Assembly (NCBI GenBank): GCA_947463515.1
Contig: CANHRI010000004.1
Coordinates: 1-64,000 of the forward strand
DNA: 64,000 bases
From: Flavobacteriaceae bacterium
Lineage (GTDB): Bacteria > Bacteroidota > Bacteroidia > Flavobacteriales > Flavobacteriaceae
Reading direction: 5' to 3'
Shown: positions 26,031-37,524 of the stretch, in pieces
How positions within the stretch are numbered: position 1 is the first letter of the stretch
How the letters are laid out: each line of letters starts with the position of its first letter
Notes under the pieces: generated by a model
Database searches by the model: none
Told to the model about the DNA's origin: nothing
What the model saw: only the letters and a program-made list of their open reading frames with translations
Program-made: the position numbers and the translations under genes

Positions 26031-26100
26031 AGTGACTAGTGATTAGTGATTAGTAATTAGTAACTAGTGATTAGTAATTAGTGACTAGTAACTAGTGACT
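26031..26100. repeat. Ten 7-bp tandem repeats AGTRAYT
   Basis: Exactly ten heptamers with purine at position 4 and pyrimidine at position 6: AGTGACT, AGTGATT (x2), AGTAATT, AGTAACT, AGTGATT, AGTAATT, AGTGACT, AGTAACT, AGTGACT. More degenerate 8-bp-like words (CAGAAGCTTAGAAGCTCAG) continue at 26123-26141. Confidence 0.92.
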
Positions 26101-36835: not shown

Positions 36836-36978
36836 GATGTAATGTGTTTTTTAAGCGACACAAAGTTACTTTTTTCTCTTTTTGATTTACGTGAAAACTA
36901 AATTGTAATTAACAATTTTATCATAAGTTCAGGTTATATTGATTTAGTAGTTAAAATGAATTTAAAATTATAAAGCAT

Positions 36979-37362
36979 GATTGCATATCCTAAAGTAGGA
37001 AAGTTGCTCAAGAAAAGTAGACACGCCATATCAGGCTGTGTCCCCAGTATATTTAAAAAAAAGGTTTGGACTTGAAAAAGCAGGATTGCATATCCTGAAG
37101 TAGGGAAAGTTGCTCAAGAAAAGTAGACACGCCTTATCAGGCTGTGTCCGCAGTATATTCAAAAAAATGGTTTGGAATTAAAAAAGCAGGATTGCATATC
37201 CTGAAGTAGGGAAGTTGCTCAAGAAAAGTAGACACGACTTATCAGGCTGTGTCCGCAGTATATTCAAAAAAATGGTTTGGAATTAAAAAAGCAGGATTGC
37301 ATATCCTGAAGTAGGGAAGTTGCTCAAGAAAAGTAGACACGCCTTATCAGGCTGTGTCCGCA
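36979..37362. repeat. 105-bp tandem repeat array, three full copies and one truncated
   Basis: Units start with GATTGCATATCCT at 36979, 37084, 37190 and 37295 (spacing 105, 106, 105). The last copy stops after GGCTGTGTCCGCA at about 37362. Units 2-4 are nearly identical; unit 1 has diverged most. Each unit can form two hairpins: CAGGAT-tgcat-ATCCTG at the unit junction (broken in unit 1) and GACACGCC-ttatca-GGC(t)GTGTC. There are no variable spacers, so it is not CRISPR. It lies between trxB and tRNA-Pro; no annotated gene explains it. Confidence 0.9.
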
Positions 37363-37363
37363 C

Positions 37364-37422
37364 TTTTTTTTGCACTACACTTAGCTCAAAAGTGAACTTT
37401 TGGCACGTGTAGTGCAAAAAAA
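37364..37422. repeat. Long inverted repeat between array and tRNA-Pro
   Basis: Arms of T8-GCACTACAC (37364-37380) and GTGTAGTGC-A7 (37407-37422) are perfectly complementary apart from one extra T. They surround 26 nt that contain an inner AAAAGT/ACTTTT palindrome. It can form a cruciform or RNA hairpin and coincides with the truncation point of the 105-bp array. Confidence 0.8.
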
Positions 37423-37444
37423 GTGGAACTCTCGTTCCACTTTT
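37416..37444 (-). terminator. Intrinsic terminator of tRNA-Pro
   Basis: Perfect stem AAAAGTGGAAC / GTTCCACTTTT with a 4-nt loop. A U-run follows on the minus strand. Confidence 0.8.
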
Positions 37445-37446
37445 CT

Positions 37447-37524
37447 TGGTCGGGGTGGCAGGATTCGAACCTGCGGCCTCCTGCTCCCAAAGCAGGCGCG
37501 ATAACCGGGCTACGCTACACCCCG
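37447..37524 (-). tRNA. tRNA-Pro (anticodon TGG), CCA encoded
   Basis: Minus-strand cloverleaf. Acceptor CGGGGTG pairs with CACCCCG. The anticodon arm is CCTGC-TTTGGGA-GCAGG with anticodon TGG in a 7-base loop. The T-arm is GCAGG-TTCGAAT-CCTGC. Discriminator A is at 37450, followed by genomic CCA at 37447-37449. A terminator follows immediately, so it is probably a single-gene transcript. Confidence 0.95.

Follow-up and report, generated by a model that had tools for sequence, protein, structure and literature searches.

The 178-bp tyrT repeats of E. coli (rtT RNA) are tandem, lie 3' of the tRNA gene and include some 19 nt copied from the tRNA 3' end. Tyrosine-integrase elements use the tRNA 3' end as their site, leave the tRNA intact and are bounded distally by a copy of the 3' end; tRNA attachment blocks typically span a segment like nt 58-74. 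GTAG- and CGTC-tagged REPs are described as short palindromic non-coding repeats with short loops, which occur in clusters and are thought to be mobilised (PMC3733652). They are dispersed and tagged at one end, and the GTAG type is associated with RAYT transposases (PMC3733652).

We analysed a window of 64,000 nucleotides from a genome of Flavobacteriaceae. The spacer between trxB and tRNA-Pro contains a tandem array, which is a partial tandem amplification, confined to the distal part, of a non-coding structured element starting at the tRNA-Pro 3' end. In many Bacteroidia, relatives of this element follow a limited set of tRNAs at an equal distance, and their last hairpin, H3, imitates the T-arm of their own tRNA. 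A limited literature search found no published description of the element. We infer, with a probability of about 0.5, that the element is small and non-coding, inserts site-specifically, acts through hairpins formed in DNA and depends on an enzyme supplied in trans.

The nearest kind would be the tRNA 3'-end repeats such as tyrT, and the element may be regarded as a variant of that broad kind. Both occur in tandem on the tRNA 3' side, and some loci of the element have a full copy of the tRNA 3' end. However, the element has a conserved hairpin architecture with compensatory change, it occurs with many kinds of tRNA and in many genera, and a hairpin replaces the T-loop. The use of the tRNA 3' end as a site, the intact tRNA and, in some loci, the distal 3' end copy are shared with the tyrosine-integrase elements, whereas the 126-150 nt between the tRNA and H3, the lack of an integrase and the left arm of H3, which follows the T-stem, are not. 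The element resembles the REPs in being short, palindromic, non-coding, clustered and short-looped, but it is placed behind tRNAs and not dispersed, and the presence of Y1 transposases does not track it. No invariant GTAG or CGTC tag was seen by eye in a 16-row alignment. A link to REP/RAYT was considered and is not supported, given the tRNA-bound placement and the distribution of PF01797 (Y1 transposase), found in 14 of the 22 genomes with the element and in 14 of the 18 others; this comparison tied no recombinase or transposase to the element.

At the gathering scores of Rfam 15, only the tRNA was matched on the spot in the window region and in sets of 12 and 20 relative loci. Elsewhere in the relative loci the matches were to Flavo-1 and DUF805. 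Flavo-1 (RF01705), a non-coding RNA of Flavobacteria, scores above the gathering threshold near two elements (L024, 832-916; L030, 246-335) but lies outside both.

The array and the parts of the element at tRNA-Pro

The tRNA-Pro (TGG) gene is on the minus strand with trxB downstream on the same strand, and thus the array is on the 3' side of tRNA-Pro. The array has period 105, 3.7 copies, 95% matches and score 703 in TRF, the top score among 10 TRF rows in the window; a short tandem repeat with 7-bp units (AGTGATT) is at 26031-26098. On the tRNA strand the order is tRNA, P1, T1, H1, H2, P1', about 19 nt, H3. The features are the following, with the evidence in parentheses.

37447..37524, minus strand: tRNA-Pro (TGG) with encoded CCA, host gene of the element (tRNA search, Rfam)
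37439..37448, minus strand: P1, CAAGAAAAGT, abutting the tRNA 3' end and forming the 5' arm of T1 (the predicted fold pairs P1 with P1')
37417..37445, minus strand: T1, terminator-like hairpin with GAGA loop and T-run (sequence, inverted repeat)
37365..37422, minus strand: H1, long inverted repeat with perfect arms of 16 nt and apex AAGTTCACTT (inverted repeat, folds)
37336..37358, minus strand: H2, hairpin GACACAGCC/GGCGTGTC, tRNA-proximal copy (sequence, fold)
37325..37334, minus strand: P1', ACTTTTCTTG, complementary to P1 and present in each array copy (inverted repeats, P1-P1' tests)
37309..37324, minus strand: linker AGCAACTTCCCTACTT (pattern AGCAAC..CCC..TTC common to relatives)
37292..37308, minus strand: H3, T-arm-like hairpin CAGGAT ATGCA ATCCTG, whose right arm equals nt 59-64 of tRNA-Pro (sequence; covariance model match at 37292-37332)
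37187..37253, minus strand: second copy of H2 - P1' - linker - H3, with H2 broken (covariance model match at 37187-37227, 16.7 bits)
37081..37159, minus strand: third copy (covariance model match, 13.2 bits; sequence)
36976..37042, minus strand: fourth copy, most diverged, with H3 damaged (sequence, inverted repeats)
36972..37362, minus strand: tandem array, 3.7 copies of the 105-bp unit (TRF, inverted-repeat listing, sequence)

Read on the tRNA strand, the array unit is H2 - P1' - linker - H3 - spacer. An earlier note, made from the sequence of the window, had described units of about 105 bp, which are present, with spacings 105/106/105; on the plus strand, the start-to-start distances are 106/105/105. 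Counting from the trxB side, copies 2-4 are nearly identical and copy 1 is the most diverged, as the note had said. It had assigned two hairpins to each full unit. Of these, the junction hairpin CAGGAT/ATCCTG is damaged in copy 1 but preserved in copies 2-4, and the second hairpin, GACACGCC/GGCTGTGTC, is broken without compensation in copy 3 (GACACGAC) but preserved in the other three copies, 1, 2 and 4.

The claim that the array fills almost the whole spacer was overstated, as it takes about 390 of 611 bp. The tRNA-side remainder contains a terminator-like hairpin and a perfect 16-bp inverted repeat (37365-37380 / 37407-37422), and these belong to the same structure as the array. The array is not a CRISPR, as the entire 105-bp unit is repeated and not identical short repeats with unique spacers; and no open frame of 60 aa is confined to the element in the window. 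BLAST of the unit against its own genome gave 11 matches, namely the four array copies and seven matches of 14-28 nt (E 0.2-2.7), and thus no further copy of the unit elsewhere in this genome. The only remnant of a tRNA 3' end copy in the window is AATCCTGC of H3.

Relatives of the element behind other tRNA genes

An exact BLAST search with the unit in 60 relatives produced short chance matches only (6 of 60 genomes, best E 0.0035), and the homology came to light only via synteny on the tRNA side. In 30 loci of the same genus, the flank in the trxB-tRNA-Pro region is often repetitive and contains additional fragments of the tRNA 3' end. One of them, L030, contains TTCAGGATATGCAATCCTGCCACCCCGAC, in which the junction hairpin of the window is joined to the tRNA-Pro 3' end, and therefore what had been described as a 6-bp hairpin is T-arm-like. 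The nearest relative seen, with TrxB 97% identical, carries the unit twice, the copies having differences in common. At a contig end of the latter genome, a possible transposase start, MNFKHYNQRQTT..., presumably IS1182-like, occupies the expected place of tRNA-Pro.

The H3 pattern with the loop left free had 44 matches in 27 of 199 genomes of the same genus, compared to 2 for the reversed control. A tRNA was present in 20 of 30 loci fetched from this pattern, and 8 of the other 10 were chance or coding matches by eye. RNAalifold on sequence alignments recovered H3 only, because the letters of H2 differ and get misaligned. Therefore a covariance model, R1, was built from six in-register sequences, with the window left out; its seed has GNA loops, and thus the later matches lean to GNA. 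The best R1 matches in the window are the array copies, and they are weak (16.7 bits, E 0.024), with the inner stem of H3 lost there; strict genome scans with R1 miss the window's own element.

At E 0.1, R1 matched 44 of 150 genomes, several weak matches being in coding sequence. In the family scan it matched 26 of 299 genomes. A tRNA is located 79-92 nt before the match in 13 of 27 family loci, from 12 genera, and farther away in 5, and none was seen in 9. In the class scan, where 19 of 295 genomes were matched, 14 of 22 loci have a tRNA at 78-95 nt, in six families besides that of the window, 3 have one outside this range and 5 have none. In both scans, the tRNAs at 78-95 nt from the shared architecture are those for Pro, Arg and Ser. 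These loci are 27 of 30 family and 22 of 30 class loci, the rest being further copies of the same arrays or a locus already read (L230). Among named genomes, the exact H3 pattern was matched 49 times; of the 35 records concerned, 34 carry Bacteroidota names and one is labelled as a Rhizobium bin. A tRNA is at most 1000 nt upstream of 39 matches, and some of the 10 without one are at contig ends.

In the relatives, one copy or a tandem array of the element is found behind tRNAs for Pro, Arg, Ser, Tyr and Val. In 143 tRNA contexts, which are the loci in hand and thus enriched by the manner of finding, H3 was found behind Pro-TGG (26 of 51), Pro-GGG (5/6), Tyr (5/8), Ser-GGA (4/5), Ser-TGA (1/2), Val-TAC (2/3), Arg-ACG (2/2), Arg-TCT (2/7) and Arg-TCG (1/2). 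It was also present in 3 of 6 contexts of Ser-GCT (with an intervening Pro tRNA in at least some), and in none of the contexts of the remaining tRNA kinds, represented by 1 to 6 contexts each. When whole tRNA sets were considered, the element was found at at least 4 of 36 genes in the window's genome (Pro-TGG; Arg-ACG three times; Tyr twice; Ser-GGA) and at at least 5 of 40 in another genome, G142. No viral contig contains a 21-mer of the unit; the H3 core occurs in 10 viral contigs, none of which has a tRNA within 250 nt upstream, and one has it at 850 nt.

Folding, co-variation and the choice between DNA and RNA

The tRNA-proximal copy (37292-37450) is predicted to fold into a closed multi-arm domain (-68.5 kcal/mol; z -9.12 with RNA and -9.64 with DNA parameters; 0 of 200 shuffles). 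In the predicted fold, P1 closes the tip of T1, H1 is lengthened, H2 is formed and H3 is separate. In the alignment of relatives, the apex of H1, AARYTYRYTT, is conserved, and it is followed by H2 of 7-9 bp with widely differing letters, the linker and H3. In the six-sequence register alignment, where H3 is nearly invariant, 9 of 16 pairs of H2 and H3 are changed on both sides, and the observed pairing was reached in 0 of 500 shuffles.

The longest complementary run between P1 and P1' in 76 elements has mean length 10.04 for own partners versus 5.43 for exchanged ones (maximum 5.97; 0 of 500), although this signal could partly reflect copying, as T1 and the foot of H2 have the same stem letters. 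In a control window the values are 4.78 and 4.81. Of 61 elements, 26 have tRNA-side bases of P1 that pair only with P1' and find no partner in T1. In 41 of the 61, P1 begins at an offset of 0-2 from nt 73, that is, often at nt 74-76, and in 45 P1' ends 17-20 nt before the GGAT of H3. The minimum energy fold is that with P1-P1' in 47 of 61 elements with RNA parameters and in 54 with DNA parameters, and that with T1 in 10 and 6, respectively. The earlier note had also considered repeated small RNAs, which are conceivable here, and a protein-binding cluster. Stems that change sequence but keep pairing argue for a fold over a fixed double-strand binding site.

Another reading is a structured 3'-trailer RNA. 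A read-through transcript might refold, with P1 leaving T1 for P1', so that the tRNA 3' end is held in a helix controlling maturation, decay or read-through. P1 is indeed able to pair either with the 3' arm of T1 or with P1', and this choice is the chief reason why the trailer RNA remains the main rival of the insertion element. The 47 RNA minima, the frequent start of P1 at nt 74-76 and the wobble pairs of H2, which lean to RNA, agree with it. However, the terminator T1 precedes most of the element, and thus little RNA is expected; the loops of H2 and H3 are GNA and GNYA, not GNRA; the element is missing behind the same tRNA in many relatives; and Rfam contains no match. On balance we consider the trailer RNA rather unlikely.

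The loops and wobbles were counted in related sequences and are to be taken as indications, not tests. In the first count, GNA loops were found in 43 of 56 H3 hairpins (GNYA in 5), 13 of 35 H2 and 1 of 46 T1 (GNRA in 12). In the second count, H2 has GNA in 34 of 65 cases, T1 has GNA in 8 and GNRA in 16 of 73, and H1 has two-nucleotide loops in 38 of 69. Mini-hairpins with GNA or GNNA loops are described as extraordinarily stable in DNA (PMC4686876). The ratio of G-T to A-C wobbles is 42/5 in T1, 23/15 in H1 and 12/4 in H2. Judging by these ratios, T1 appears to behave as RNA, H1 has no clear preference and H2 seems to lean to RNA. H3 keeps a C-A or G-A mismatch. A small RNA on the reverse strand, ending at H2 and a T-run as seen in the window and several relatives, was considered and rejected as a general model, as the Arg-type elements have no T-run there.

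Imitation of the T-arm and proposed insertion at the tRNA 3' end

The right arm of H3 repeats the T-stem strand of the tRNA: AATCCTG behind Pro-TGG, AATCCAG behind Pro-GGG and AATCCC behind Ser. In 103 elements, six of them in Ser-GCT contexts, in which a Pro tRNA may intervene, it agrees with nt 63-65 of its own tRNA in 219 of 309 positions, whereas permutation gives mean 160 and maximum 187 (2000 trials). One exception is L062, where an H3 of the Pro-TGG type is found behind Pro-GGG; perhaps this copy has moved. The left arm of H3 follows the tRNA too, and both the fixed-attachment and the simple target-duplication models fail to explain this. In one genome, G016, the elements at three tRNA loci (L112, L113, L056) have the inner stem AGC-GNA-GCT instead of the usual AC-GNA-GT, as if adapted together.

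In the Ser-Pro-Arg operon, the Pro-Arg spacer is 1-45 nt in all 30 loci read, which were the best matches to a compact query, so that short spacers were favoured. In five other loci it is 159-403 nt and contains the element. The native spacer before tRNA-Arg is common to the empty loci L273 and L272 and the filled loci L121, L120 and L116. The order in L121 is tRNA-Pro, element, AATCCTGCCACCCCGAC (17 nt, tRNA nt 58-74), native spacer. This order is that of an insertion followed by a copied tRNA end rather than of simple tandem duplication, and the element looks inserted in at least one operon. The full 17-nt copy of the tRNA 3' end is also present in L092 and L030, but the distal copy is absent from many elements, including that of the window.

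The same data bear on two other explanations. Firstly, the elements could be relics of tandem duplication and slippage, the tRNA 3' end and the terminator being duplicated and the copies decaying neutrally, like the repeats at tyrT of E. coli. The tandem copies differ in few bases, distal tRNA 3' copies exist, and behind tRNA-Pro (TGG) in the relatives L035 and L048 there are tRNA pseudogene-like arrays (units of 131 and 145 bp in L048 and L035, respectively), in which a GAAA-capped hairpin replaces the anticodon arm. However, the stems have compensatory changes, the layout is constant across the family and the class, and in L121 the native spacer that follows the distal copy is no duplicate. 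The co-variation counts against such relics as the whole story, which we regard as improbable, although the extra copies may be so explained. Slippage near a tRNA hotspot, suggested in the earlier note, is thus compatible with the extra copies, but what was multiplied is a structured element of older origin. The evidence argues against the neutral duplication named in the note, as copies exist in relatives and the stems co-vary.

Secondly, the element could be an attachment-site remnant of larger tRNA-integrating islands, with H3 and the distal tRNA copy as an old attR and the rest as a left-over island end. The copied segment, about nt 58-74, coincides with a typical tRNA attachment block, and in L087 and L098 the tRNA preceding the element lacks its 5' part and is reduced to a 3' end, as would be seen where an integrated island meets its flank. 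On the other hand, the size is constant at 126-150 nt with the same order of hairpins at many tRNAs, the element is too short for an integrase reading frame, and the left arm of H3 varies with the tRNA. The island remnant is therefore very improbable.

The preferred reading, a site-specific insertion element, would involve entry at the tRNA 3' end with the tRNA left intact and a copy of about nt 58-74 placed behind the element. P1-P1' pairing would bring the ends of the element together in single-stranded or extruded DNA, and the hairpins would serve a recombining enzyme supplied in trans. Tandem copies might arise by repeated insertion, slippage or unequal exchange, the surplus copies decaying; the array in the window would need only local amplification of H2-P1'-linker-H3 and the spacer. 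More tentatively, we suggest that the element is a minimal mobile or host-tamed non-coding DNA of about 130-150 nt, found only at certain tRNA 3' ends, closing on itself by a CCA-end helix, with an imitation of the T-arm at its far end that follows the tRNA of each lineage, and recognised by shape as single-stranded DNA by a putative enzyme.

If this is true, a structured neighbour missing from RNA and repeat libraries is attached to tRNA genes across much of Bacteroidia, and the frequent repetitiveness of tRNA 3' flanks in these genomes is explained. The coupling of H3 with the T-stem would be a natural record of insertion-site co-evolution, and these tRNA genes a concrete place to seek an enzyme reading DNA hairpins.

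Several further arrays and inserts were observed at tRNA genes. In the window's genome, a second tandem array with period 70, containing hairpins CAAAGCGGAGCTTTG and GGATGTTGCGCAGCAAAATCC, is located behind tRNA-Arg (ACG) and ends near another copy of the tRNA 3' end. Behind tRNA-Leu (TAG) of the same genome there are T1 and tRNA 3' end copies with palindrome CCCCGAATGTTCGGGG replacing the T-loop, and a similar insert is found behind Pro in L035 and L036. Finally, a large array with spacing of about 116 nt behind a Ser-Pro tRNA pair (G503:C1:157713-158827) holds most of the 12 model matches of its genome.
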